Positions 1,509 to 16,260 of a DNA stretch of 26,643 nt are shown here, one piece after another; the stretch's first letter is position 1; every line of letters starts with the position of its first letter. A model generated the notes under the pieces. It did no database searches. It saw only the letters and a list, made by a program, of their open reading frames with translations, and had not been told where the DNA came from. Source of the stretch: a virus; the IMG/VR virus record IMGVR_UViG_3300009373_000166, positions 1-26,643 of that record. One strand, 5' to 3'. Made by a program: the position numbers and the translations under genes.

Positions 1509-3434
1509 ATGAGCACACAGACTCCATTTTCAGGGCTCACCGGCGACCAAAGAGCCGTTGAACTCGTCAAAGCAAGACACACACTGGCCGAACAGGCACA
1601 GAGTGTTATTTTTAGTAAATACGACAAATGGTTTAGGATGTATAAGAATGAAAGGGTGGAGTATAACTATAAAGGATTTTCAAATATTAGAGTGCCTAAA
1701 GCATTTGAGAAAGTAGAACGAGGAACTGGAATATTAGCTCAAGCAATTAAAAGAATTAGGATTATACCTCAAGGAGAGGAGGATAAAGAATCAGGAGAAA
1801 TGAATGAGAGGTTGATTGAATTTGAGGATAGAGTTTTAAACATACCGAAGATTAGAAAACAGTGGATTAAGTCAGCCAGGATTCACGGCCAATCATATTT
1901 AAAAGTTACATGGGATGTGGGCAAAGAGGAACCGGAAAGACCATATAAAGGAATTGATATCTCTTTACCCGATCCTAAAACTATTTTTTACAATCCGGAC
2001 CACACACCAGATAAACCTTTTAGATGGGTGATCCATGACATGGACGTTCCATATGAGGAACTATCCAAAAACAAATCATTTGATAAGGAAGCTTTACTAA
2101 AAGCTAAAGATACCGCTACATTAGGAAAGAACACAGCGCATAAAGGTAGGAAAGGAAGAACCGGGAACAAGGGAGATTGGAAAAGCGATGAGACCACATT
2201 AATGGTCAATGTAAAGGAATATTACGGGCCATACCAGGATACTGACGAATCGGATGTTGAGCCATACAGAATCATTATGGCCAATAATGAGCATATACTA
2301 AAGAAAGGATTAAATCCTTATGCAGAAATACTAGATGATCCGATTCCAATCATCCCACTTTACACATACGTAGTGCCTCATGAGCCACACGCAATGGGGG
2401 ACATCGAGGCAACAGAATCTTTAATTATTGAATTAAACGACACGCGTAACCAAAGAATGGATACAGTTACGCAAAACATTGATCCTCCTAAGGAAGTATT
2501 AAAAGCAGCGCAGATTTCAGAATCCGATTTGGTGGCTAAGAGAGGATGGATTATTCATTCCTCAATGCCAAATGGAATCAAGTGGGTACATCCTGATATG
2601 CAAGGAGTTATCGCGGCAATCAACGAGGAGAAAATCATTCAAGGGGATATTGATAGAACATTAGGTATTCCAAGCTTTGGAGCAGAAACTCCAGTAGCTG
2701 GGGACTTAACAACTGATACAGCAACTGGAATCAATGCAACACTTCAAGCCCAAGATGTTATTTCGAACTCGATACTAGAGGAAGTTAAGGAAGCATTAAA
2801 GAAATTTTATCGAGCGATATTAGCTTACAACCAAACATTCATTGACCGGGAATTTAAAATTACAGTATTAGAAGAGGATGTGACTAATGTTCAGGGAGAG
2901 CAAATGGCTCCTGAAGAAATAGAAGGGCAGCCAGCAGCTCAACCAGCGCAAATACTAAGGGGTGGAATGGCAATGCAGCCATTCACAGTTGATAAGGACC
3001 GCATCAAAGGAAACTTTGATTTAGATGTAGAGGTAGAATTAGTTGGGAACAGACTGGCCAGGAGAGCAGAAGCATTGGCCGCTATTAAAATTATTGGACA
3101 AATACCTGGAGCAAAGCATGGGAGATTAATTGAGGATTACTTAAGGACTCATGATAAATACAACATTGAGGATTACTGGCAGCCACCAGAACCTCCAGCT
3201 CCGGAAGCTCCAAAAGTTAGCGTTTCATTGAGAGGTGAATTGGGCGATATGAGATCAGCTCAGGTATATAAAAACATCCCTGGAGTGAATGAAGCATTAG
3301 GAGATCCTGCATTTAGTATCGAGGGTAGAAAGATAATGAGAGGAGAATTACCGGAGAACGAGGAAAGAGATGATAAGGATAGAGAAATAGAAGAAAAGAA
3401 AAAAGAGAAAGTAGAAGTAAAGGAGGTTAAATAA
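1509..3434 (+). CDS. Phage portal protein
   Basis: A 641-residue portal protein, the dodecameric ring at the head vertex through which DNA passes. Evidence: position directly after the large terminase, size, and the layout of P22/SU10-like portals. It has an N-terminal part with KYDKWFRMYKNERVEYNYKG and FSNIRVPKAFEKVERG. Around residues 296-325 GDIEATESLIIELNDTRN begins the long stem helix region. IDRTLGIPSFGAE follows, and then TATGINATLQAQ, a crown-side helix typical of these proteins. The last 40 residues are very rich in Lys/Glu (DDKDREIEEKKKEKVEVKEVK region) and look disordered or coiled. GAGG lies 7-10 bases before the ATG. I am sure of the portal role, less sure of the subfamily. Confidence 0.9.
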   Translation: MSTQTPFSGLTGDQRAVELVKARHTLAEQAQSVIFSKYDKWFRMYKNERVEYNYKGFSNIRVPKAFEKVERGTGILAQAIKRIRIIPQGEEDKESGEMNERLIEFEDRVLNIPKIRKQWIKSARIHGQSYLKVTWDVGKEEPERPYKGIDISLPDPKTIFYNPDHTPDKPFRWVIHDMDVPYEELSKNKSFDKEALLKAKDTATLGKNTAHKGRKGRTGNKGDWKSDETTLMVNVKEYYGPYQDTDESDVEPYRIIMANNEHILKKGLNPYAEILDDPIPIIPLYTYVVPHEPHAMGDIEATESLIIELNDTRNQRMDTVTQNIDPPKEVLKAAQISESDLVAKRGWIIHSSMPNGIKWVHPDMQGVIAAINEEKIIQGDIDRTLGIPSFGAETPVAGDLTTDTATGINATLQAQDVISNSILEEVKEALKKFYRAILAYNQTFIDREFKITVLEEDVTNVQGEQMAPEEIEGQPAAQPAQILRGGMAMQPFTVDKDRIKGNFDLDVEVELVGNRLARRAEALAAIKIIGQIPGAKHGRLIEDYLRTHDKYNIEDYWQPPEPPAPEAPKVSVSLRGELGDMRSAQVYKNIPGVNEALGDPAFSIEGRKIMRGELPENEERDDKDREIEEKKKEKVEVKEVK

Positions 3435-3772: not shown

Positions 3773-4048
3773 ATGTCTAAACCAAACGACGAAAAAAAAC
3801 AAGCAGAAACAGGGCTGCCTTATGATGGAGGCAGAGGCGGTGATATTATTCACCACGATACGGAGATGCCTCGTATCAACTCGCACGTCGTGAAAACTGG
3901 GGCGAAAGAGGAAAAAGTTGGTCCTGACGCAGGAGTCAACTTTAGAGAGCCCTACGACGAGCAACACGGCGGCGAAGAGAACCTACATGATAGACATGTG
4001 AAAGTAGGTGAAATTGACCACACCTCTACTCAAAAATTTGAGAAGTAA
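3773..4048 (+). CDS. Hydrophilic protein of unknown function, head region
   Basis: A 91-residue protein with no recognised family. It is rich in Gly, Asp, Glu and His (GGRGGDIIHHDTEMPRINSH, EPYDEQHGGEENLHDRHVK), has no hydrophobic core and is probably largely disordered or folds only with a partner. Several His/Asp clusters (IIHHD, LHDRH) might bind metal, but there is no defined motif. It begins five bases after the stop of the 45-residue gene and is followed by the long hairpin at 4072-4169. Coding is supported by position, direction and a tight fit between neighbours rather than by homology. The opposite strand also has an open frame here, which I take as a shadow. Confidence 0.65.
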   Translation: MSKPNDEKKQAETGLPYDGGRGGDIIHHDTEMPRINSHVVKTGAKEEKVGPDAGVNFREPYDEQHGGEENLHDRHVKVGEIDHTSTQKFEK

Positions 4049-4071
4049 CCTTAATAATTAGGCCAAGAGGT

Positions 4072-4169
4072 GAGGTTTCTTCCATGCCTTATCGGATAAT
4101 TAAGAGGATCCGGCTAAGTCCTCAATTCTGATACTTTAGATTTATCCGATGCGGCATGGAGGAAATCTC
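4072..4169 (+). ncRNA. Long imperfect hairpin before the scaffold gene (mRNA structure or processing site)
   Basis: The arm at 4072-4088 (GAGGTTTCTTCCATGCC) pairs completely with 4153-4169 (GGCATGGAGGAAATCTC), using two G-U pairs. After a single mismatch (4089/4152), ten more pairs follow between 4090-4099 and 4142-4151, one of them G-U. This makes 27 pairs in 28 positions, closing a 42-base loop that itself holds GAGGA (4104-4108) and TCCTC (4119-4123). The segment CGGAT (4093-4097) could also pair with a second ATCCG at 4108-4112, so an alternative fold exists. GGAGG (4158-4162), a ribosome-site-like sequence, is buried in the right arm. No U-run follows, so it is not a simple terminator. 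It may be a cleavage site for RNase III or a translational control element. Confidence 0.6.
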
Positions 4170-4187
4170 TATATTGGCTACATAATC

Positions 4188-5054
4188 ATGCCAGAAGAAA
4201 AAAAGACGGATAACATTATGCTAAATCAGGAAGGACAACCTGTTAATGTTCCTGGAGTAAAAGACGAAAAAGTCGTCAAGGATGCCGAAGGAAATCCTAT
4301 TGTGCCAACCGGCACAGAGGAACCTGGCACCGAAGCTCCTAAAGATAAATTAGCAAGGCCCGCACCTGATCCAAGTGCTGCGCAGCCGCAGCCAGTAGCT
4401 ATGCCCGATCAAAAAGCTCCTGATCAGATCCAGGAGACAGCTCCTCAAAAGGCCGTGGAGGAAACGATAACCTTTGATGAGTTGGCTGCGAAAAAGGGAT
4501 TTAAATCGCCTGATGATATGGCGAAATCTTATCAAAACCTTGAATCGCAGAATACAAGAGTAGAAGTCTCCTTAGCAGATGCAATAAAGGCCAGAAATGA
4601 AGGCGAAGTTTCTAATGAAAGAAACGAAGTCGAATCTGCTATGAATGCTGAATCCACCGATGATGCTTTGAAAATTGTCAGTCGTATGATTGACAAAAAA
4701 GTAAAGGCAGTCGAGGATAAGCAGGAATATCAGTTGCATTTAATGGCTAACCCTGATGACCAGAAGCACGCAGCAAAAGCGATTGACATTGTGCGTGAAA
4801 ATCCTGGTATTAGTTGGGGAACTGCATTTGACGCTGCTAAGGGTAGAGACACTGGACAAAACCTTAGCGCAGCACGCGAAGAGGGCAAGCAAGAGGCATA
4901 TGATACAAAAACAGCAAAAGAGGATGTCACCGATATTCACGGTGGGACCACTAAAGAGCTGCAAATGACTCCCAAAATGTTAATAGATGGGATAAAGACA
5001 GGACAGATTCCACTTGCTGAGGCTCGTAAGATTATCAACGCTGCTACACCTTAA
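4188..5054 (+). CDS. Scaffold-like protein preceding the major capsid gene
   Basis: 288 residues if started at ATG 4188. A longer start at 4149 would lie inside the hairpin arm and would add 13 residues of unlikely sequence. The N-terminal 90 residues are Pro/Ala/Gln-rich and acidic, hence disordered. Then comes FDELAAKKGFKSPDDMAKSYQNLE, the short helical motif commonly seen in phage scaffolding proteins, followed by charged helices to about residue 200. The C-terminal 40 residues contain LIDGIKTGQIPLAEARKII. Order, composition and position immediately upstream of the capsid gene are those of scaffold proteins, which fill the prohead and leave before packaging. There is no protease motif. The nearest GGAGG is 25 bases from ATG 4188 and sits in the hairpin, so initiation here may be unusual. 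Confidence 0.7.
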   Translation: MPEEKKTDNIMLNQEGQPVNVPGVKDEKVVKDAEGNPIVPTGTEEPGTEAPKDKLARPAPDPSAAQPQPVAMPDQKAPDQIQETAPQKAVEETITFDELAAKKGFKSPDDMAKSYQNLESQNTRVEVSLADAIKARNEGEVSNERNEVESAMNAESTDDALKIVSRMIDKKVKAVEDKQEYQLHLMANPDDQKHAAKAIDIVRENPGISWGTAFDAAKGRDTGQNLSAAREEGKQEAYDTKTAKEDVTDIHGGTTKELQMTPKMLIDGIKTGQIPLAEARKIINAATP

Positions 5055-5079: not shown

Positions 5080-6156
5080 ATGCCTGCAATAGGACTTGGT
5101 ACTATTACTAGTATCAGCGATCTTACCAATTTGGTAAAAACTTATTACGACCGGATGCTATTGGAGACCCTTGATCCTGAAGTTAAGTTCTTTCAGTTTG
5201 GCGTTAAGAAACCGTTGCCACGAGGCGAAGGTAACAGCGTCTACTGGAATAGGCCAAGACGTTTAGGTTTTGGTCAGAAGTTAGCTGCTGGGATTAAGCC
5301 GTCTGCCAATGAGCTATCAACCATACTCGTTTCTGGTTTGATTGAGGTTTATGGTGGATACACCCTCATTGAGGACTTAGTATCTACCACGGCTATCGTT
5401 GATCCATTGGAAATCGCAACCCAGGAGCTTGCTAAGCAAGCTGCTGAAACGATTGATAAGGCTACGATGCAAGCGATCATCTTCTATGGTGATCCAGGTA
5501 CTAACACTTCTGCGGTTCATGTTACTAAAAGCTCTGCTGCACTTTTGATTTCGACTAACTCTTTTGTCGCTAATGTTGATACAGCATGTCTCATTGCAGT
5601 ATCCGACATTAGGGCTTGTACAGCTGAATTAAGGCGTAGGAGAGTTCCGACTGTTGATGGTCAGAACTACGTGGGTATAATCAACCCAGTTGTAGCTGCT
5701 GACATGAGGTCGGACTCAACATGGCAGAACTGGCATCAGTACACCACCCCTGAATTCCTTTATCGAGGTGAAATTGGAAGAGTAGAAGGTGTTCGATTCG
5801 TCGAAACCGACTTGACTCCAGTTTCAGCCGGTTCAGGCGCAGGTATCGCCATTTCAATGGCGGCTGGTGTTTCTGCACTTGCCTATGGTACGCCGATTTT
5901 CGGACGAGGATTCTACGGAGTAACTGAGTTAGATGGAGGAATCCATACTTACTTAGTAACCGGAGCTTCTAAGTCTGACCCTCTCAATCAGACAACCACA
6001 TATGGTTGGAAAGCATTCTACACTTCTAAGGTTTTGAACGTATCAGCTGGATTAGTTCTTTGGACTGGTTCCGAAGACACTATGACTGGTACTAGTTCAA
6101 CCTCTGCTCGTGAGGCTGCTGGATTGACTCTATCGGCAATTCCAACTGCTACCTAG
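5080..6156 (+). CDS. Major capsid protein, N4-gp56 family
   Basis: A 358-residue HK97-fold capsid subunit of the N4-gp56 family. Family hallmarks are visible: TNLVKTYYDRMLLETLDPEVKF near residues 15-36, FGVKKPLPRGEGNSVYWNRP (44-63), the LAAGIKPSANELST segment (70-83), VYGGYTLIEDLV (91-102) and a long helix IATQELAKQAAETIDKAT (113-130). The length is normal for the family. AAAGGAG at 5063-5069, ten bases before the ATG, is a strong ribosome site and fixes the start. The codon choice is more mixed (CGT, GGT and GCT are frequent) than in the AGA/ATA-rich genes around it, as expected for a highly expressed gene. It is followed by hairpins and a promoter. Confidence 0.95.
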   Translation: MPAIGLGTITSISDLTNLVKTYYDRMLLETLDPEVKFFQFGVKKPLPRGEGNSVYWNRPRRLGFGQKLAAGIKPSANELSTILVSGLIEVYGGYTLIEDLVSTTAIVDPLEIATQELAKQAAETIDKATMQAIIFYGDPGTNTSAVHVTKSSAALLISTNSFVANVDTACLIAVSDIRACTAELRRRRVPTVDGQNYVGIINPVVAADMRSDSTWQNWHQYTTPEFLYRGEIGRVEGVRFVETDLTPVSAGSGAGIAISMAAGVSALAYGTPIFGRGFYGVTELDGGIHTYLVTGASKSDPLNQTTTYGWKAFYTSKVLNVSAGLVLWTGSEDTMTGTSSTSAREAAGLTLSAIPTAT

Positions 6157-6181: not shown

Positions 6182-6228
6182 CCTGTGGGTTTATTACTCA
6201 ACACAGGTGGCAAGCTTATTGGCTTGCC
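6182..6228 (+). other. Two tandem hairpins after the capsid gene
   Basis: CCTGTG (6182-6187) pairs with CACAGG (6202-6207), and two T-A pairs can extend it past a GG bulge. One base later GGCAAGC (6209-6215) pairs perfectly with GCTTGCC (6222-6228) around a six-base loop. Neither is followed by a U-run, so classical intrinsic termination is not shown. They may protect the 3' end of the capsid mRNA or slow polymerase. The right arm of the second hairpin overlaps the -35 box of the promoter that follows. Confidence 0.5.
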
Positions 6229-6253
6229 TGGGTAATTGAACATATGCTATAAT
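6224..6253 (+). promoter_or_regulatory. Sigma-70-type promoter with extended -10
   Basis: TTGCCT at 6224-6229 (four of six consensus bases) is followed after 18 bases by a perfect TATAAT at 6248-6253. TGC directly before it forms an extended -10 (TGCTATAAT). A start near 6260 would give a leader of about 35 bases to the gene at 6294. This is the best promoter I found in the window. It lies between the capsid gene and the two small genes leading into the sugar island. Confidence 0.65.
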
Positions 6254-6293
6254 ATATAAAGGTCGATTACCGAGTATAAGCCAATAAACTATC

Positions 6294-6787: not shown

Positions 6788-7747
6788 ATGCGTATAGCAA
6801 TAACTGGGGCAGCCGGTTTTATCGGTTCAAACTTCGTCTATTATATGGCGAAGAAATACCCTAACTACGATTTTGTTTTAATAGATAAATTAACCTACGC
6901 TGCTGGCGAGGGCGGTTTTGCGTGGGATAACATCGAGGATTTCCGCACGGATCCTCGATTTCGCTTTTTTGAAAACGATATTTGTGATGAGGAATCAATG
7001 TATGACGCTTTGTATATGTGTAATTCAGTAGTCAACTTCGCTGCAGAATCGCACGTAGGTAGAGCTATTGTTAAACCAAATAGACACATGCGTTCGAATA
7101 TAATGGGAGCAGCCATTATAGCAGAGGTAGCCACGAATTATCACATGAGGATGTTACATATAAGTACTGATGAGGTATATGGGGAAATCAATAAAGGAAA
7201 ATTTGAGGAGGATGCGCCTAGGCTTCCACAAAATCGTTATGCTGGCTCGAAAGCGGCAGCAGAAGTCTTTACTTACTCGTATATGTTTCCTCCCCATAAT
7301 TTGGATATATTGTATACTCGTTCTGGTAACAATTTTGGCAAGTTCCAATCGCAAGAAAAATTTGTACACGTTATTGCGGAAAGTATTGCCAAGAACCGTG
7401 CGATTCCTGTCCACGGAAAGGGGGAAGAAATACGAGACTGGCTTTACGTTTTGGATAACTGCCGAGCTATTGACCTCGTATTACATGAAGGTAAAAGTGG
7501 GGAATTTTATAACATCGCTCCTCATAATGAGTTGCGTAATATTGATCTTGCTAAGCTCGCTATTGATAAATTCGGAGGCACGCTCAATTTTATCGCCAAT
7601 CGTCCTGGTAATGATGCTCGTTATTCTTTGGATACAAAAAAGGTCGAAGCATTAGGATGGAAACCAGCAGCAGTAGGTAAGGAGTTTGAAAAAGTAATGT
7701 TAGAAACGATAGAATACTACATTAATAAATATAGGAGGGGAAAATGA
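6788..7747 (+). CDS. dTDP-glucose 4,6-dehydratase-like enzyme (RmlB family, extended SDR)
   Basis: 319 residues. The NAD-binding loop is GAAGFIG (7-13), and FAAESHVGR (84-92) is the usual segment after strand 4. The dehydratase triad motif STDEVYGE holds T127, D128 and E129, and Y151/K155 (YAGSK) are the catalytic pair. Asp-Glu after Thr is the mark of true 4,6-dehydratases as opposed to 4-epimerases. RDWLYVLDNCRAI and an ending like other RmlB proteins (RPGNDARYSLD, LGWKP) add support. Expected reaction: NDP-glucose to NDP-4-keto-6-deoxyglucose; whether the carrier is dTDP or UDP cannot be read here. The V-D-R-S loop of RmlB is V-G-R-A. Two thirds of its Arg codons are CGN, unlike the later island genes. 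Its stop overlaps the next start (ATGA). Confidence 0.85.
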   Translation: MRIAITGAAGFIGSNFVYYMAKKYPNYDFVLIDKLTYAAGEGGFAWDNIEDFRTDPRFRFFENDICDEESMYDALYMCNSVVNFAAESHVGRAIVKPNRHMRSNIMGAAIIAEVATNYHMRMLHISTDEVYGEINKGKFEEDAPRLPQNRYAGSKAAAEVFTYSYMFPPHNLDILYTRSGNNFGKFQSQEKFVHVIAESIAKNRAIPVHGKGEEIRDWLYVLDNCRAIDLVLHEGKSGEFYNIAPHNELRNIDLAKLAIDKFGGTLNFIANRPGNDARYSLDTKKVEALGWKPAAVGKEFEKVMLETIEYYINKYRRGK

Positions 7748-8151
7748 TTGATACTTATAGAATTTATGAACCGGAGTTGAGTAAAATATTGACACAAGAT
7801 ATCGGGAATGATTCAGTTATTCATTCACATGTATGTATTTACAAAGATGTCAAGATTGGCGAAAGAGTCAGGATCCAAGCATTCACATTTATACCTGATG
7901 GAGTGACGATAGAAGATGATTGTTTTATCGGACCAAGAGTAACGTTTACTAATGATCCCAAATTAACCTGCAAGGGACCTAAATATTGGGAAAAGACATT
8001 AGTAAAGAAAGGAGCAAAGATTGGAGCAGGTGCGAACATACTGGCCGGAGTGACTATTGGAGAGAATGCTATTATAGGAATGGGTGCTAACGTGATGAGA
8101 GATGTCGATGACAATGAAAAGGCGTGGGGATTAGTAACAAAAGAAAAATGA
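7744..8151 (+). CDS. Sugar O/N-acyltransferase, left-handed beta-helix (hexapeptide repeat) type
   Basis: 135 residues, mostly imperfect hexapeptide repeats: VKIGERVRIQAF, VTIEDDCFIGPRVTFTNDP, AKIGAGANILAGVTIGENAIIGMGANVMRDV. The G-P-x-V-x-F-T-N-D loop and the following T-L-V-K-K-G-A segment are those of the WbpD/FdtC/QdtC group, which acetylate an amino group on a nucleotide sugar. It is shorter than the usual 150-190 residues, lacking some N-terminal coils. AGGAGG at 7733-7738 gives it a strong ribosome site, and its ATG overlaps the stop of the dehydratase gene. A second enzyme of the same fold lies at 9945, so the two probably act on different sugars or positions. Confidence 0.8.
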   Translation: MIDTYRIYEPELSKILTQDIGNDSVIHSHVCIYKDVKIGERVRIQAFTFIPDGVTIEDDCFIGPRVTFTNDPKLTCKGPKYWEKTLVKKGAKIGAGANILAGVTIGENAIIGMGANVMRDVDDNEKAWGLVTKEK

Positions 8152-9167
8152 TACCATTTTGCAAAACAACATTGGGCAAGGAAGAAAAAAGAGCAATCAC
8201 AAAAGTGATTGACTCTGGCTGGGTAGTAATGGGTAAAAAAACCCAAGAGTTTGAGGAACAATTCTCAAAATATGTGGGAGCTGAATACTCTGTTTTTGTT
8301 GACTCCGGAACGTCAGCTTTATTGCTGGCAATGGAATGGTTGACACAAAACGCAAAAGGTGAGTTTTCAGTTCCCTCTCTCACTTTTACAGCAACGGCAG
8401 AAGTGATTATTAATTCAGGAAACACGCCGGTATTTGAAGACGTGGACATAAATACTCTATTAATGGAAAGTCTATATATAGATGGACCATCATTGCCAGT
8501 TCATTTGCTTGGAAATAAATCGGGAATAGACGCAATGATTTATGATTCGGCTCATAGAATAGAAAAGGATGATTTAAAAGGAGTGCCGGCAGCTTTGTAT
8601 TGTTATTCGTTTTACGCAACAAAGAATATGACCACAGTTCAAGGAGGAATGGTGGCCACAAACAACAAAAAGGCGTATGAGTGGATCAAGCTAGCCAGGG
8701 ACCATGGACTAGACATGGGGACTAAAGAACGTTACCAGGGCAAATACAAACAATACGAAGTTCAATTTGTTGGCTTTAGAGAAAAGTCAGATGATATTCA
8801 TGCAGCTATTGGGATCGAGCAATTAAAGAAATTGCCATGGATGACTGAAAGGCGGAATAAGTTACTTGAATACTACAATAGACTACTAGGATTAAACAGA
8901 ACAGGGAATCATGTTTATTACGTATTGGTCGACAAGCGTGATAGATTCATGCAGTACATGTTTGATAAAGGAATCCAGTGTACAGTGCATTTTAAGCCGT
9001 TACATTTAATGAAAGGATATAGAAAGTATTGGAGGAATGAATTACCCAATACAGAATACTTAGGAGATAGATTAGTATCTCTACCGCTTTATCCTGACAT
9101 GACTAACGAACAAGTCAATTATGTGGCTAAAGCAGTCAGGGATTCTAACTTATTGATAAATGAATAA
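8148..9167 (+). CDS. PLP-dependent nucleotide-sugar aminotransferase (DegT/DnrJ/EryC1 family; WbpE/FdtB-like)
   Basis: 339 residues from ATG 8148, which overlaps the previous stop as ATGA; a GTG 24 bases upstream is possible but less likely. The family pattern is clear: SGWVVMGKKTQEFEEQFSKY at 23-42, then DSGTSALLLAM (52-62), which holds the phosphate of PLP. YDSAHRIE follows, with D133 (pyridine N) and H136. YSFYATKNMTTVQGG has K159 as the Schiff-base lysine. It transfers an amino group from glutamate to a keto sugar, probably the 3-keto uronic acid made by the next gene's product, or a 3- or 4-keto-6-deoxy sugar made by way of the dehydratase. It is some 25-30 residues shorter than most relatives, with compact loops around PVHLLGN. 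Confidence 0.88.
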   Translation: MIPFCKTTLGKEEKRAITKVIDSGWVVMGKKTQEFEEQFSKYVGAEYSVFVDSGTSALLLAMEWLTQNAKGEFSVPSLTFTATAEVIINSGNTPVFEDVDINTLLMESLYIDGPSLPVHLLGNKSGIDAMIYDSAHRIEKDDLKGVPAALYCYSFYATKNMTTVQGGMVATNNKKAYEWIKLARDHGLDMGTKERYQGKYKQYEVQFVGFREKSDDIHAAIGIEQLKKLPWMTERRNKLLEYYNRLLGLNRTGNHVYYVLVDKRDRFMQYMFDKGIQCTVHFKPLHLMKGYRKYWRNELPNTEYLGDRLVSLPLYPDMTNEQVNYVAKAVRDSNLLINE

Positions 9168-9969
9168 ATGGGGAATAATAGGGCTGGGATTTATCAGCCA
9201 GAGGCACGTAGATGCCATTAAAGACATAGGCGACAATCTAATTGCCGTCTGCGATATAGATAGGAGTAAAAAAGAAAAGTTTAGCGCTACATTTTTTGAT
9301 GACTACAAAAAGATGATAGAAACAATGTCATTAGATAATGTGGCCATATGTACGCCAAATCATTTACATGTAGAAATGGCGGAGCATTGTTTAGATAAAG
9401 GAATAAAAGTTTTATGCGAGAAACCTTTGAGTATTAGTTCTAGGAGTATTAATAAATTACCTAACGATGGCTCAATTTATACCATTTTACAACTAAGGCA
9501 TAATCCGGAGATACAAGAAATCAAAGAGCAATTAAATCCGAAAGACTATTATAACGGTAGAATGATAATTAGCATTCATAGAGACCGGCCATATTTTAAA
9601 AGCTGGAAAGCAGACGAATCTAAATCAGGAGGATTACTAAATAACATCGGAGTGCATTACTTTGATTTACTATACTGGTTTTTTGGAAAACCTAAGGAAG
9701 CTAAATTTGACACAGGGACAGATAGATCATCAGATGGTCGTATAAAATTTAAAAACGCCGAGATATATTGGAATTTATCAATAGAAGCTCCACTAGATAA
9801 TCAAATTAGAAAGTTAAATATTAATGGATTTGGGATTGACCTAACTAGACATTTTGAAGGATTGCACACAAAAGTGTATCGAGACTTTAAAAATGGAAGA
9901 GGAATACTGCCTAGAGAGGCAATCCATTCCATTAAATTAATAGAATGTTTGAAAAGAAACTCAAAATAA
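9160..9969 (+). CDS. Nucleotide-sugar 3-dehydrogenase, Gfo/Idh/MocA family (WlbA/WbpB-like)
   Basis: 269 residues. The nucleotide-binding loop is GIIGLGFISQRH (5-16) and the E-K-P motif lies in LCEKPLS near 85-90. SGGLLNNIGVHYFDLLYWFFG at about 156-175 contains the catalytic His region of WlbA/WbpB proteins. The end, FEGLHTKVYRDFKNGRG plus AIHSIKLI, matches the C-terminus of the same group well. Known members oxidise C3 of UDP-GlcNAc-uronic acid, giving the 3-keto substrate for the WbpE aminotransferase, whose homologue is the gene just before (8-base overlap). It is shorter than the typical 310-320 residues because the middle of the substrate domain is trimmed. I am fairly sure of this subgroup because both the G-G-x-L-x-N-x-G-x-H block and the C-terminal block agree. 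Confidence 0.85.
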   Translation: MNKWGIIGLGFISQRHVDAIKDIGDNLIAVCDIDRSKKEKFSATFFDDYKKMIETMSLDNVAICTPNHLHVEMAEHCLDKGIKVLCEKPLSISSRSINKLPNDGSIYTILQLRHNPEIQEIKEQLNPKDYYNGRMIISIHRDRPYFKSWKADESKSGGLLNNIGVHYFDLLYWFFGKPKEAKFDTGTDRSSDGRIKFKNAEIYWNLSIEAPLDNQIRKLNINGFGIDLTRHFEGLHTKVYRDFKNGRGILPREAIHSIKLIECLKRNSK

Positions 9970-10511
9970 GTGCTGCGGAAACAGCAATCATAGAAGATGG
10001 GGCCAAGATTGGAGATGGTTCAAAGATTTGGCATTTCTCTCATATCATGGGGACTGCAGTCATTGGGGATAATTGCTCAATAGGAGAAAGAGTATTTATT
10101 GGAGATGGAGTTATTATAGGAGATAATTGTAAAATAGCTAATGGGGCAAATATATATAAAGGGGCCGTAATAAGAAATAATGTTTTTATTGGAAATAATG
10201 TATCGTTTACTAATGTCAAATATCCTCGTGCCTGGAGAAAGCCGCGAGAATTTGTGCCAGTAATAGTAGACGAAAATGTTACTATTAATGCTAACGCTAT
10301 CGTGGTCGGTGGTGTTCGTATAGGTAGGAACTCGACAGTCGGCGAGGGGGCAATTGTAGTTAGAGACGTTTCAGAGGGTGGATTTGTCGTAAGTCCGCCA
10401 GCTCAATGTCTCTGTGATCGTGATAATTGCGCCGAATGTTTTAAACGTAAAGAGAAAAATAAATTACGATATCAAAAAAATGTTGAAAAAAAACAACAAA
10501 ACAACACCTAA
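9945..10511 (+). CDS. Nucleotide-sugar N-acetyltransferase, left-handed beta-helix (WbpD/WlbB-like)
   Basis: 188 residues. It opens AAETAIIEDGAKIGDGSKIW and continues HFSHIMGTAVIGDNCSIGER, close to the start of WbpD/WlbB proteins. Regular hexapeptide coils run to about residue 145, with the V-S-F-T-N-V loop near 85-90. In the known pathway it acetylates the 3-amino group to give the UDP-2,3-diacetamido-uronic acid. After the last coil a short Cys cluster, CLCDRDNCAEC, is followed by a Lys/Gln/Asn tail. Four Cys spaced C-x-C-x4-C-x2-C are not part of the family as I know it and may bind a metal. Codon choice shifts near 10220: CGN arginine and GGT/GCT become frequent in the second half. It overlaps the oxidoreductase gene by 25 bases. 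Confidence 0.85.
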   Translation: MFEKKLKISAAETAIIEDGAKIGDGSKIWHFSHIMGTAVIGDNCSIGERVFIGDGVIIGDNCKIANGANIYKGAVIRNNVFIGNNVSFTNVKYPRAWRKPREFVPVIVDENVTINANAIVVGGVRIGRNSTVGEGAIVVRDVSEGGFVVSPPAQCLCDRDNCAECFKRKEKNKLRYQKNVEKKQQNNT

Positions 10512-12666
10512 GATGTCATTTATTACGCCATGTTATAATGATGGCGATGAGATAGAAAGATACGTTGATTCTTTAATAGATCAGGATTTTAAGAATTGGG
10601 AATTGATTATAGTAAACGATGGATCAACCGATGATTCTAAAAATGTCATTAACGCTCTCGTTCAAAAAGATGAAAGAGTTAGGGCGATACATCTCAAGAA
10701 GAATCAGGGGGCCTGTATTGCTAGGAATAAAGGAGCTAAAGAAGCCAAAGGAGAAATCTATTCATTTCTACCAGCTGATTCATTTCTCTATCCGGGAATG
10801 CTTAGAATATGGGTCGAGCAATTAGATGAGTATAAAGATTATGATTTCTTATATGGAGGATATAGATTAGTCGATAATAAGACTCATGAACCACTACAAG
10901 GCGGAGAGCTTTTATTTCATCCCTTTGATCCTTATCTTTTACAGGTAATGAATTACATTGATGGTTCATTCCCTATCAGGGCCAAAGCATTTTGGGAAGT
11001 AACTGATTTAATGGTTAATAAACTGAAAAGACAGAAATCAGAAGGACTTTGGGACCCGGCCATTAAATCACTTCAAGATTGGGACTTTTGGTTATCTGTT
11101 GTTCAGATCGCCAAGAAAAAAGGCATTTACATTCAAGATATATTCTTTGAAACTACGGCGCCACATCCTGGTGGGTTATCTTATGACTCAGCTGAAAACT
11201 GGATTGAAAGAACAGAGGCAATCAAAAAAAAGCACGGAATACCCGATAGGAAACTATGTGTTGCTTCGTTGGGGGCCACATTCCACGCAAAAAGATTAGC
11301 TTATATACTAAATGCTGACTTTAAAGAAATGCCATCATTTAAGGCACACAAGTATGAGTCAATCTATGTTATAGGTTTTTATCCTGAATTTGCACCACAG
11401 CAAGACATGATGTTTTGGAATAACGCTTATAACAAGGATGGCGGAAAGACCACGGCTAAAAAGATTATTCATTTTGTAGGCACAGATATATGGCAGCTTA
11501 GAAAGATATCATTAGATGGATTACAAATTTGGAAACAATATATTAGAAACTTTATTGATGAGGTGTTGGTAGAGGCTGACTTCACTCGAGATGAGCTAAA
11601 AGAGATTTTAGGAATAGAAGCTAAGATAGTACCAATACCGCCAGCAAAATTATACAAGACAATGCCATTGCCTAAAAAGTTTACAGTGGCATGTTATCAG
11701 CCGGCCACTAATGCAGCATTCTATAATCCTCAAATTATGGAAGAAGTGGCCAAGCAAATGCCGAATGTAGAGTTTAAGTTCTTCGGTAATCCAATGACGG
11801 TAGGTAAGCATAAAGATATTAAAAACATTGAGAACGTTGGATACATAAATGATATGGAAACATTCATAAAAGAATGTTCAGCTATAATGAGATTTCCAAT
11901 GCACGATGGATTGCCAATTAGTGTACTTGAATTTGTATTGGCTGGTAGATACGCAACATTGAATGTACCAGTTAAAGAGACATATTTCGTGCCTAAATCA
12001 GATGTTAAATCAATCATTCATTCTCTTGATATAATACAGAAAAGAATTAAGAAAGAGGGGATAAACAAGAAAGCTTCTAAACATTGGAGAAAAGAATTAG
12101 ATCACGGCAAATATAAAACGACAATGGAAAAGATTGCTTTATATGATCCTAAATCCTATTGGGAAAATAGAGCTGAAAGTTGGGATGCACAAGCAAATAG
12201 TATGGAAGTGGAAGAAAATGATGTCAAAAAGTTTTACAATATAGTTAAGCCTAAAAGTGTATTAGACATAGGAGCCGGGAATGGACGATGGATACCAATA
12301 CTAGAGAAATGGGGATTGGACCTTAAAAATTATTTAGGCACAGACATATCAGGCAAGTTAGTGGATATAGCTCAAAAGAAATATCCTAAGGCTTCATTCC
12401 TTATGCAAGGAATAGAGCAATTAAAAATGGATAAGAAATATGATTTGATATTTAGTTATACGACTTTAGAACATGTAAGAGAAGAAGATATCGTTAATGT
12501 GGCTAAAAGAATTAAAAAGTGTGGTAAGAAATTACTATTGATAGAGCCAACGGATTTTATATCAAGACACTATTGTAGAAGTCATGACTACGAAAAGATC
12601 TTTAAGGTTATTAAGAAAAAGAAATTAAAGGATAAAACAATATTCTTATGCGATTTGTCAGCGTAG
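10480..12666 (+). CDS. Three-domain glycosyltransferase: GT2 + GT-B (GT4-like) + SAM methyltransferase
   Basis: 728 residues from ATG 10480; ATG 10513, one base after the previous stop, would remove 11 residues. Domain 1 (about 12-250) is a GT2 fold: SFITPCYNDGDEIERYVDSL, IIVNDGSTDDS, and ACIARNKGAKEAKGEI. The usual D-x-D position reads F-L-P-A-D-S, so the first and third Asp are replaced. Domain 2 (about 270-545) looks like a GT-B retaining transferase, with HFVGTDIW and the donor-side block HDGLPISVLEFVLAGRYATL near 475. Domain 3 (about 555-727) is a class I methyltransferase: SYWENRAESWDAQA, then VLDIGAGNGRW near 593 (SAM loop), GTDISGKLV, FSYTTLEHV. The protein probably adds two sugars, or one if domain 1 is inactive, and methylates the product. 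It lacks membrane segments. The gene after it overlaps by 19 bases. Confidence 0.85.
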   Translation: MLKKNNKTTPKMSFITPCYNDGDEIERYVDSLIDQDFKNWELIIVNDGSTDDSKNVINALVQKDERVRAIHLKKNQGACIARNKGAKEAKGEIYSFLPADSFLYPGMLRIWVEQLDEYKDYDFLYGGYRLVDNKTHEPLQGGELLFHPFDPYLLQVMNYIDGSFPIRAKAFWEVTDLMVNKLKRQKSEGLWDPAIKSLQDWDFWLSVVQIAKKKGIYIQDIFFETTAPHPGGLSYDSAENWIERTEAIKKKHGIPDRKLCVASLGATFHAKRLAYILNADFKEMPSFKAHKYESIYVIGFYPEFAPQQDMMFWNNAYNKDGGKTTAKKIIHFVGTDIWQLRKISLDGLQIWKQYIRNFIDEVLVEADFTRDELKEILGIEAKIVPIPPAKLYKTMPLPKKFTVACYQPATNAAFYNPQIMEEVAKQMPNVEFKFFGNPMTVGKHKDIKNIENVGYINDMETFIKECSAIMRFPMHDGLPISVLEFVLAGRYATLNVPVKETYFVPKSDVKSIIHSLDIIQKRIKKEGINKKASKHWRKELDHGKYKTTMEKIALYDPKSYWENRAESWDAQANSMEVEENDVKKFYNIVKPKSVLDIGAGNGRWIPILEKWGLDLKNYLGTDISGKLVDIAQKKYPKASFLMQGIEQLKMDKKYDLIFSYTTLEHVREEDIVNVAKRIKKCGKKLLLIEPTDFISRHYCRSHDYEKIFKVIKKKKLKDKTIFLCDLSA

Positions 12667-13343
12667 TAATGCCAACATACAACCATGGGCAATACATCGC
12701 CAATGCGATTAATTCTATTTTATTACAAAGCTATAAGAATTTAGAATTGATAATTATAGACGATGGGTCAGAGGATAATACGGAAGAAGTAGTTAAAAGG
12801 TTTAACGATAAAAGAATTAGGTATTTTAAGCATTCACACATGGGGATGATAAGGGCTAGGAATCTTGCAAACGAGATAGCAAGAGGTAATGTGATTATGT
12901 TTCAAGACGCAGATGATATTAGTATGCCCGATAGAATAGAAAGATGTATTGACTTATTTCTAAAGTATGACGTTGTATACCATGGTCTTTATCATAATGC
13001 ATGGAGTGAGATGGAATGCATGGCTAGAGTATATGTACAGGCAGAAAAGTTTGATAAGAAAAGATTATTAAAAGAACAATACATACCCGGCGCCTGTTTA
13101 TTTAAAAAAGAATTGTGGGAAAGAAAACCATTTAGAATAGACACTCAAGACGCATTTGATTGGATGATGCATTTGGATTGGGTTTATTCCGGAGCGAAAT
13201 ATATTAATTTAGATGTGGGGTTATATGAGTATGTAAGGACAATGAATTCCATATCGCAAACAAATGAGTCATCAGGTAGAAGAGTAGAAGCCATTAAAAA
13301 GATTAAGGAGATAATGAAAAATGAGTACAAAGCCAAAATTTAG
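12648..13343 (+). CDS. Family 2 glycosyltransferase (first of a tandem pair)
   Basis: 231 residues, GT-A fold. VSVVMPTYNHGQYIANAINS starts at residue 4, IIIDDGSEDNTEE near 35-47 binds the nucleotide, and FQDADDISMPDRI near 83-95 carries the D-x-D metal site. The rest is acceptor domain, with EQYIPGACLFKKELW and VGLYEYVRTMNSIS. A cytoplasmic inverting transferase is expected; donor and acceptor cannot be told. It shares an unusual block with the next gene (L-x-K-E-Q-Y-I-P-G, Y-E-Y-x-x-R), which suggests that the two arose by duplication. It overlaps its neighbours on both sides by about 20 bases and is shorter than many GT2 enzymes because it has no C-terminal extension. Confidence 0.88.
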   Translation: MRFVSVVMPTYNHGQYIANAINSILLQSYKNLELIIIDDGSEDNTEEVVKRFNDKRIRYFKHSHMGMIRARNLANEIARGNVIMFQDADDISMPDRIERCIDLFLKYDVVYHGLYHNAWSEMECMARVYVQAEKFDKKRLLKEQYIPGACLFKKELWERKPFRIDTQDAFDWMMHLDWVYSGAKYINLDVGLYEYVRTMNSISQTNESSGRRVEAIKKIKEIMKNEYKAKI

Positions 13344-14097
13344 TATAGTCATGCCAGTTTGGAATAGAGGAGATATAGTACAAAATGCTATTCGTTCAGT
13401 TTTAGATCAATCGGTTAAGGATTACGAGTTTATTATAGTAGATGATGGTTCTACGGATGGAACTGAAAGGATCATTAAGAGTTTTGAAAATCCGAGAATA
13501 AAGTATTTTAAGATACCGCATACCGGACACATTGGGCAAGTTAGGAATTATGGTAATAGGAAAGCCAAAGGAGAATGGATTGTAGTGCAAGATTCAGATG
13601 ATAGGTCATTCCCTGATCGTCTGTATTGGATAGATAAATATACAGATAAAGATACAGATATTATTTACCATGATATGTACGTAGCGTCGTTTGACCCTGA
13701 GCATAATGCGGCAATGCGGAGATTAAGAAAGATAGGAAGGTATTCAAAAGACAAATTAATGAAAGAGCAATACATTCCTGGCCAGATAGCTTATAGGAGA
13801 AAATCAATTTTGAAAGTACCATACGATGATAGGATTCAATGCTGTGATGATTTTCAAGTATTATTAGAACTAGCCCTGAATGATATGAGATTTAAGTATA
13901 TAGACAAGCCACTATACGAATACTTCATGAGATCAGATTCAGTAAACATATTAGGAGAAATAGATGGACGTAGATTTGAGGATACTAGAATAATTGTGGA
14001 TATACTAAAAAAGAAATATAAAATTAAAGCTATCGGTGAGCTTAAGAAATGGTCACCTATGACAGGCAAAATGACAAAACAAGAATATGTCGAATAA
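13321..14097 (+). CDS. Family 2 glycosyltransferase (second of a tandem pair)
   Basis: 258 residues. FSIVMPVWNRGDIVQNAIRS begins at residue 7, IIVDDGSTDGTERI near 38-51, and VVQDSDDRSFPDRL near 88-101 with the D-x-D metal site. The acceptor half has MKEQYIPGQIAYRRKSIL and PLYEYFMRSDSVN, parallel to the preceding gene. The ending adds 25 residues (KKWSPMTGKMTKQEYVE) not seen in the partner. It is a GT-A enzyme without membrane segment, so it is cytoplasmic. It starts 22 bases before the end of the gene above and overlaps the epimerase start by 11 bases. As the two copies have diverged strongly, they likely add different residues of the same glycan. Confidence 0.88.
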   Translation: MSTKPKFSIVMPVWNRGDIVQNAIRSVLDQSVKDYEFIIVDDGSTDGTERIIKSFENPRIKYFKIPHTGHIGQVRNYGNRKAKGEWIVVQDSDDRSFPDRLYWIDKYTDKDTDIIYHDMYVASFDPEHNAAMRRLRKIGRYSKDKLMKEQYIPGQIAYRRKSILKVPYDDRIQCCDDFQVLLELALNDMRFKYIDKPLYEYFMRSDSVNILGEIDGRRFEDTRIIVDILKKKYKIKAIGELKKWSPMTGKMTKQEYVE

Positions 14098-15103
14098 AAT
14101 ATATACCATAGTAGGAAATAGACCACAGTTTATAAAGGTGGACCCTAAATTAAAACAAAGAATTATTCATACTGGCCAACATCATGATTACAAGATGAGT
14201 CAGATATTCTTTAAGGAATTAAAATTACCTAAGCCGTATAAGAATTTAGGATGTAAATCAAATGAGTCTGGAAAGATGTATGATAAAATGGTGGAATTAT
14301 TTAAAAAAGATAAACCCGGACTCGTAGTTGTATATGGGGATACACTAAGTACAATGATGGGGGCATTGGCTGCAGCTTTTTGTAATATACCCATAGCTCA
14401 TATAGAGGCCGGATGTAGAAGTTTCAACATGGAAATGCCAGAGGAAATATCAAGAATAATAACAGATCGACTGGCTAAGATAGGAATAGCTTTTACAAGA
14501 GATAGTCATAAGAATTTAATAAATGAAAAAGGAAATACAGACAGGCACACTTTGTATATCAAGGGGGATCCGATGTTTGATGCTATGCAAATAGCTTTAC
14601 CGGCTAAAAGGTATAATTATCATAAATATATACTTGTAACTATTCATAGAAACTTTAATACAGATGACCATAAAAGATTAAAACAAATTATTCAAGGACT
14701 GAATGAATGTAAAGATGAGACATTTGTATGGCCAGTACATCCGAGGACTAAAAAAGAGCTAAGGAAAGCCAAATTACATTTGCAACCGCACGTGCAGATG
14801 ATAGATCCTGTAGGATATAAACAGATGATTAAATTAGAATCAAACGCTAAGAAAATATTAACTGATTCAGGTGGAGTAATGAGAGAAGCTTATTGGATGA
14901 GAATACCTTGTATAGTAGTAAGGAATGAAACTGAATGGCCATATATAGTTAGAGATGGCTGGGCTGTATTAGTTGAAGCAGATAAAAAAGTAGTTAGCGC
15001 AGCAATAAAACACTTCAATCCTGAATCAAGAACAAGACAAAGTGAATTGCCGGAGTATGGTGTTCATGCTAAAATTAGAAATAAATTAGCAATGTATTTA
15101 TGA
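14087..15103 (+). CDS. UDP-GlcNAc 2-epimerase family enzyme (WecB/WbpI-like)
   Basis: 338 residues. The family blocks appear in order: GNRPQFIK (10-17), IIHTGQHHDYKMS, VVVYGDTLSTMMGALAAA near 80-97, AHIEAGCRSF and MPEEISRIITDR, VTIHRNFNTDDHKRL, then VWPVHPRTKKEL and LTDSGGVMREAYW. These hold the Arg, Lys, Asp, two Glu and His residues known to matter in WecB. Two family-typical residues differ: G-T-R-P is GNRP, and H-R-x-E-N is H-R-N-F-N. The stretch between FIK and HTGQ is about ten residues shorter than usual. Likely reactions are UDP-GlcNAc to UDP-ManNAc or, given the neighbours, UDP-GlcNAc3NAcA to the manno epimer as WbpI does. The choice cannot be made from sequence alone. Confidence 0.88.
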   Translation: MSNKIYTIVGNRPQFIKVDPKLKQRIIHTGQHHDYKMSQIFFKELKLPKPYKNLGCKSNESGKMYDKMVELFKKDKPGLVVVYGDTLSTMMGALAAAFCNIPIAHIEAGCRSFNMEMPEEISRIITDRLAKIGIAFTRDSHKNLINEKGNTDRHTLYIKGDPMFDAMQIALPAKRYNYHKYILVTIHRNFNTDDHKRLKQIIQGLNECKDETFVWPVHPRTKKELRKAKLHLQPHVQMIDPVGYKQMIKLESNAKKILTDSGGVMREAYWMRIPCIVVRNETEWPYIVRDGWAVLVEADKKVVSAAIKHFNPESRTRQSELPEYGVHAKIRNKLAMYL

Positions 15104-16260
15104 AAAAACAAAAACTAAAAATCTATTTTTATGTAGCAGAAAATTCAGGCGTAGGATACTACCGTCAGTATTTACCAGCTTGGGTTTTAAGAGAATCGGG
15201 TGTGGCAGAAACGAGGATTAACGATTTTAGATGGGGAAAAGGTGATCATGTTGAACCAACGGAAAAGGCATTTTTTGAAATATGTAACTGGGCTGATCTT
15301 ATAGTAGTAGGAAGAATGGATAAGCCCGAGTATTACGCGAAATGGGGAGGAGCTAAAGAGTTCTTCAACATGCCGATTATACTAGACACAGACGACAATG
15401 TACAACACGTTAGGCCATCTAACCCAGGGTATCAAGGATATCATCCTGGATCAGAACATTTGATTTGGAATAAACAAGCAATGGAAAAAATATTTGATGC
15501 AATATCAGTTACAACAGATCATTTAAAAGAATTTTACAACAGATATCATCCTAGGATTTACGTACTTCCTAATAATTTAGATATTCCTAAGTGGGAAAAA
15601 TCACCATTGAGGAAAATAAAGAAAAATGATAAACTAAGATTAGGATTTATTTGTTCAGGATCACACGCAGAAGGATTTGGTATCATTCAGAAATCAGTGT
15701 ATAATATACTTAAGAAGTACAAGAACGTTGAATTTTATCATCCTGAAATGTATTATCGTTTATTTGATGGAGCTCCTAAAGAAGTAAAGAAACAAATTAA
15801 AAAACTGCCATGGATTTATTTAAAGAAATGGCCAAAAGAATTAAGGAAACTAGGATTAGATATAGCATTGATGCCTCTTAAAGATAATAACTTTAACAGA
15901 GGGAAATCAAACCTTAGATACATTGAATCGTCAATGACAGGAGCAGCTTCAATTGCTTCACCAGTAGAGCCATACAGAACAATCAACGATGGAGTAGATG
16001 GAATATTGGCCAGCGAAGAAAATGAATGGTTCAAAGCAATAGAATCACTGATATTAAATCCAGACGAAAGAGAACGATTAGCTAGTAATGCACAAAAAAG
16101 GGTTGTAAAGGAATTTAATATATGGGATAATATAGGTATATGGAATAATGTGTATCAAGAAATACACAAAAAGTTCCATGACTTCTATGGATCAAAGAAA
16201 AGGTACATGGATATAGGGAAAGGACAATACCAAGAAATTACAACCGGTAAAGGTGATTAG
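15100..16260 (+). CDS. GT-B fold glycosyltransferase (GT4-like)
   Basis: 386 residues; the last gene of the sugar island. The N-terminal half contains KIYFYVAENSGVGYYRQYLP, where GVGYYR is the acceptor-side glycine loop, then LIVVGRMDKPEYYAKWGG and VTTDHLKEFYNRYHPRIYVLPN before the domain linker. The C-terminal half begins LRLGFICSGSHAEGFG, and the donor-side block NLRYIESSMTGAASIASPVEPYR stands where GT4 enzymes have their E-x7-E region. Here the second Glu position is not conserved in the usual spacing. There is no membrane segment. It overlaps the epimerase gene by four bases (ATGA) and is followed within 35 bases by a terminator-like hairpin, so it closes the operon. Confidence 0.85.
   Translation: MKKQKLKIYFYVAENSGVGYYRQYLPAWVLRESGVAETRINDFRWGKGDHVEPTEKAFFEICNWADLIVVGRMDKPEYYAKWGGAKEFFNMPIILDTDDNVQHVRPSNPGYQGYHPGSEHLIWNKQAMEKIFDAISVTTDHLKEFYNRYHPRIYVLPNNLDIPKWEKSPLRKIKKNDKLRLGFICSGSHAEGFGIIQKSVYNILKKYKNVEFYHPEMYYRLFDGAPKEVKKQIKKLPWIYLKKWPKELRKLGLDIALMPLKDNNFNRGKSNLRYIESSMTGAASIASPVEPYRTINDGVDGILASEENEWFKAIESLILNPDERERLASNAQKRVVKEFNIWDNIGIWNNVYQEIHKKFHDFYGSKKRYMDIGKGQYQEITTGKGD

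Follow-up and report, generated by a model that had tools for sequence, protein, structure and literature searches.

RNase III sites of T7-like phages are long stems of about two turns that lie between the genes of a polycistron, carry a small internal mismatch and are not followed by a U-run. More generally, a stem of two turns with a central mismatch is what is expected of an RNase III substrate. The T7 sites are, to our knowledge, not located between portal and scaffold, two genes that stand in the order portal-scaffold-coat in phage P22. In E. coli, the stability of betT mRNA is governed by tandem RNase III sites within a stem-loop (PMC4067347). In the T7-like phage LUZ100, a local promoter and a strong terminator lie around the capsid gene (PMC10134795), and autoregulation is described for the scaffolding protein of P22 (Wyckoff and Casjens 1985, as cited in PMC5744158). 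The open-access literature yielded no report of hairpins at the portal-scaffold border that are conserved in position and variable in sequence. The hairpin described here resembles the T7-like sites in stem length, intergenic place, mismatch and missing U-run, making it a candidate site, and differs from them in that relatives do not share its arm sequence. As in LUZ100, regulatory marks set the capsid gene apart from its neighbours; the LUZ100 marks, however, are a transcription start and stop, whereas no U-run follows the hairpins of the present group and their surroundings show no excess of promoters. With P22 the common points are a control site before the scaffold gene and the portal-scaffold-coat order; the present hairpins differ in that their sequence is not conserved.

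The window, the whole stretch of viral DNA that was analysed (26,643 bases), matches an identical 41-kb record (G001/L001), and the first 19 kb are without difference. Among 50,697 phage records there was no close relative of the window (best capsid identity 31%) and no nucleotide match for the window or the hairpin. Two small ORFs lie between the portal and scaffold-type genes (Table 1). The scaffold-type gene was assigned by its place before the capsid gene and by homology to ORFs in the same place in relatives; it had no match in PHROG or Pfam. Because the genes of the 41-kb record include an Amidase_2 enzyme and a DPBB lytic transglycosylase, the virus probably infects a bacterium that has peptidoglycan.

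Table 1. Features at the head-gene locus; positions are those of the window.
Feature	Position	Strand	Basis
Terminase gene	start 92		
Portal protein gene (upstream block)	1509..3434	+	PHROG 1216, E 1.7e-15
Small ORF (gp4), immediately 5′ of the hairpin	3773..4048	+	
Entire predicted structure, including outer 6-bp helix 4061-4066/4174-4179	4061..4179	+	fold
Main stem, 5′ arm (17 bp + mismatch + 10 bp)	4072..4099	+	fold, repeat finder
Loop with two small predicted stems (4104-4123, 4127-4140)	4100..4141	+	
Main stem, 3′ arm, holding GGAGG (4158-4162) and an in-frame ATG (4149)	4142..4169	+	
Scaffold-type gene	4188..5054	+	start inferred from relatives
Major capsid protein gene	5080..6156	+	PHROG 1357, E 1.4e-45
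Second hairpin, directly 3′ of the capsid gene (11-bp outer and 9-bp inner helix)	6206..6293	+	

A repeat finder limited to 200 nt ranked the two 28-nt arms first in length among the inverted repeats of the window, and the hairpin that they form is the strongest in the window. It sits inside a 139-nt gap between the small ORF and the scaffold-type gene. Direct reading bore out the initial annotation, which had described 27 of 28 positions as paired with three G-U pairs and one mismatch: the main stem has 24 Watson-Crick pairs, three G-U pairs and a single mismatch, U4089 opposite C4152. Besides the outer helix, the fold predicts two small stems in the loop. The RNA fold of 4060-4180 had an energy of -61.3 kcal/mol, compared with -30.5 ± 3.4 kcal/mol in 200 dinucleotide shuffles (z = -9.2; 0/200 shuffles as good). 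The stem score was 56.5; shuffled genomes contain almost no stems that reach a score of 38, about 0.25 per shuffled 41-kb genome.

Capsid searches gave 67 usable loci, to which L076 was added from a genome bin, and a stem finder was run over the loci; searches with gp4 of L004, the window portal and the L018 capsid returned no further contigs. In the window and in four other lineages (L003-L005, L008, L017 and L018), a strong hairpin, which is the top stem of its locus, immediately precedes the scaffold gene and lies between the same two flanking genes. The arm sequences are unrelated between lineages, such that pairing of an arm with its own partner gives -31 to -42 kcal/mol and pairing across lineages mostly -2 to -15 kcal/mol, with one value of -20. 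L017 and L018 have the upstream gene end in common, and L003 and L008 the scaffold leader, and in both pairs the hairpins are unalignable; in L017 and L018 the arms and loops are wholly different. Cross-lineage covariation is uncountable because the hairpins cannot be aligned. The main stem is 27 bp in the window and 20-26 bp in L003-L005, L008 and L018, with paired helices of 17+10, 14+11 or 12, 12+8 and 12+13 bp; L017 has 14 bp plus junction helices.

Upstream hairpins are confined to one clade of 11 rows in the capsid tree. Within it they are patchy: none was found in L002, L006 or L076, where the gaps are 20, 43 and 30 nt, and L007 has only weak stems in its scaffold-leader gap. This patchy distribution indicates that the hairpin has been lost, gained or replaced several times. 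According to the initial annotation, loss of pairing in relatives that keep the flanking genes would speak against a selected structure. Pairing is indeed absent beside conserved genes in L002, L006 and L076, two of which (L002 and L076) are the closest relatives of the window and do not conserve its exact hairpin, but L003-L005, L008, L017 and L018 contradict such a refutation, having different hairpins at the same border. In L076, an HNH endonuclease gene (PF01844; L076:4072-4518) is inserted exactly at the site of the window's hairpin.

Substitutions within one lineage are consistent with selection on the structure itself. L003, L004 and L005 are 96-97% identical overall. Between L003 and L004, 6/14 unpaired bases of the 64-nt hairpin differ and 0/50 paired bases do (P = 4e-5, with pairing status taken from the L003 fold), a test that is somewhat inflated since the three sequences compared also served to derive the structure. 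When the same six changes were placed at random, an equally stable fold resulted in 1% of trials. The L005 hairpin has lost 6 nt, all from the loop, and no two-sided compensatory change was seen among the three sequences. Together with the occurrence of unrelated hairpins in the same gap, the avoidance of paired bases agrees with the annotation's proposal of selection at the level of RNA structure. Shape rather than letters appears to be what counts, and we consider it highly probable that the hairpin is an element selected for its structure, which would act as RNA. A coding ORF running through the L003-L005 hairpin was also considered and rejected: the L003/L004 differences (I/T, P/S, H/R, F/L) are all amino-acid changes, and L008, which has the common leader AGATAAACCTATGGATAAC, is without an in-frame upstream extension.

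The enrichment of stems in scaffold leaders was evaluated in nine lineages of the one capsid clade, and compared with the remaining intergenic gaps that were 45 nt or longer. Stems scoring at least 32 occurred in 5/9 scaffold-leader gaps and in 7/74 other gaps (Fisher P = 0.0025), and stems scoring at least 38 in 5/9 and 3/74, respectively (P = 0.0002), P values that are indicative only because the gaps come from related genomes. In a folding scan corrected for GC by regression, the scaffold leader ranked first in the window, L004, L017 and L018 (in L018 tied with the post-capsid segment) and second in L008. Against a role specific to this border, hairpins are in general more frequent between genes than within coding sequence. 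Equally strong long hairpins also lie in other intergenic places on the contigs of L017 (G012; 2567-2641 and 7620-7718) and L018 (G013; 4148-4240 in reverse-complement coordinates).

Several familiar types of element were compared with these hairpins. An intrinsic transcription terminator has a G+C-rich stem and then an immediate U-run; no U-run follows the upstream hairpin in the window (tail UAUAUUGGCUAC) or in its relatives, and thus these are not intrinsic terminators. No Rfam match was found for the window and six relatives.

The initial annotation had also pointed to a buried sequence resembling a ribosome site and suggested a switch controlling the scaffold:capsid ratio. In one form of such a switch, pairing would mask the ribosome-binding site and opening of the stem would turn on scaffold translation. 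The GGAGG is placed in the 3′ arm as it had reported, and L003-L005 and L017 likewise have GGAG-like stretches in their 3′ arms. In a sequestering switch, however, the Shine-Dalgarno sequence would lie in the stem 5-10 nt before the start, whereas ATG 4188, the start that fits the scaffold start of relatives, is 25 nt beyond the end of the GGAGG. Nor is the motif conserved: the L008 hairpin has nothing resembling GGAGG, and scaffold leaders are A/T-rich and without a Shine-Dalgarno in L002, L003, L006, L008, L017 and L018, including relatives that have no hairpin. Several other genes of the window phage do have a Shine-Dalgarno. We therefore regard such a switch as scarcely credible. The in-frame ATG within the 3′ arm is probably not the scaffold start. 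A mini-ORF, TTG-GCT-ACA-TAA (4174-4185), begins 11 nt after the GGAGG, leaving 2 nt between its end and the scaffold ATG; it could serve as a translation coupler, and no counterpart was seen in relatives.

A further suggestion was that the hairpin is a small mobile palindrome, or an insertion remnant at a site that tolerates insertion. High sequence turnover would fit, as would the contents of the same gap, which is filled by the endonuclease gene in L076 and nearly empty in L002. A MITE- or REP-like element, however, requires several dispersed copies, and searches found a single copy in the phage and none dispersed in 2.9 million viral contigs or the 50,697 phage records (an exact 18-mer of the 5′ arm hit only the same phage in those contigs). 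No direct repeats were seen at the edges, and the L003/L004 substitutions avoid paired bases. Mobility is thus a very unlikely explanation.

The position of the hairpin in the scaffold-gene leader also raises autogenous control, whereby the scaffold (or capsid) protein would bind the hairpin and tune its own synthesis. The scaffold:capsid ratio matters in assembly, and P22, with its portal-scaffold-coat gene order, offers a precedent. A protein-binding site should nevertheless keep its sequence or its loop, which L017 and L018 do not, and no hairpin is present in relatives whose scaffolds are homologous (50-51% identity); we judge this reading improbable.

A second hairpin lies directly 3′ of the capsid gene. 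A post-capsid hairpin was present in 9/9 lineages (window, L002, L003-L005, L006, L007, L008, L017, L018 and L076), differing in sequence between them and reaching up to 27 bp in relatives (27 bp in L002), and in all nine it ranked within the top three structures of the locus in the GC-corrected scan. At least 5/9 post-capsid gaps scored 32 or more in the ungapped-stem test, a count that is a lower bound because the L008 gap was misplaced owing to its interrupted capsid gene.

Taken together, the upstream hairpin is probably an RNA boundary element of the scaffold-capsid mRNA, acting as an RNase III-type processing site or as an exonuclease barrier. In the proposed model, the upstream hairpin would mark the 5′ border of the scaffold-capsid message within the late mRNA and the post-capsid hairpin its 3′ border. 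The double-strand RNase of the host (RNase III) would cut at the hairpin, the cut or leftover stem would steer exonucleases, and the scaffold-capsid segment, for which demand is high, would then decay independently of the messages for portal and tail. The model has to call on a host enzyme since no RNase III gene was found in the 15 phage records examined. The 27-bp stem of the window exceeds the approximately 20 bp looked for in a candidate RNase III site, and most upstream stems span roughly two turns and are split by a small central mismatch. This anatomy at the border between portal and scaffold-capsid genes, together with the missing U-run, makes it a predicted site of the kind that the initial annotation had proposed. 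We give the whole boundary-element reading, with RNase III cleavage as its likeliest mechanism, about even chances; modelled cleavage of the hairpin by RNase III is itself close to an even proposition, perhaps slightly below it.

Alternatively, the hairpin might stabilise the mRNA uncut, solely as a roadblock to exonucleases at the 5′ end, as the post-capsid hairpin would be at the 3′ end. Stable stems do stand at both ends of the scaffold-capsid segment, and forms with a junction, as in the window and L017, would block exonucleases as well. Stabilisation without cleavage, which sequence does not tell apart from processing, is possible but doubtful, however, as a two-turn length and a central mismatch exceed what a roadblock needs. 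Returning to the processed boundary, the hairpin is a form of a known element type that is conserved in position and variable in sequence. We tentatively suggest, at rather less than even likelihood, that the hairpins bracketing the scaffold-capsid segment in this phage group are sequence-free RNA punctuation at the head-gene border, freely replaced as long as position and the shape of about two turns are kept, and defining a capsid message that is processed separately. An arrangement of this kind would suggest a means for such a phage to produce much more scaffold and capsid than portal off a single polycistron. Homology searches and Rfam miss elements in which form and location are kept rather than sequence, and position between syntenic genes offers a way to find mRNA processing borders in uncultured phages.

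Two relatives and the window itself showed further features of note. The capsid gene of L008 is broken by approximately 650 bp (L008:4355-5000) containing an ORF of 166 aa that carries a LAGLIDADG-like motif (IAGLVDGEGCIGI); this is probably an intron with a homing endonuclease, and no Rfam intron match was found in the interruption. L076, with a capsid 75% identical, is a phage contig in a Nanoarchaeota bin. That assignment is probably a binning error, an archaeal host being unlikely because the related window phage has peptidoglycan enzymes. Between its head and tail genes the window carries a sugar-synthesis and glycosyltransferase cassette (6788-16260) encoding sugar dehydratase/epimerase-like proteins, hexapeptide transferases, a DegT aminotransferase, a GFO/IDH/MocA oxidoreductase, several GT2 enzymes and a UDP-GlcNAc 2-epimerase, and a similar sugar/glycosyltransferase cassette lies 3′ of the capsid gene in L076.
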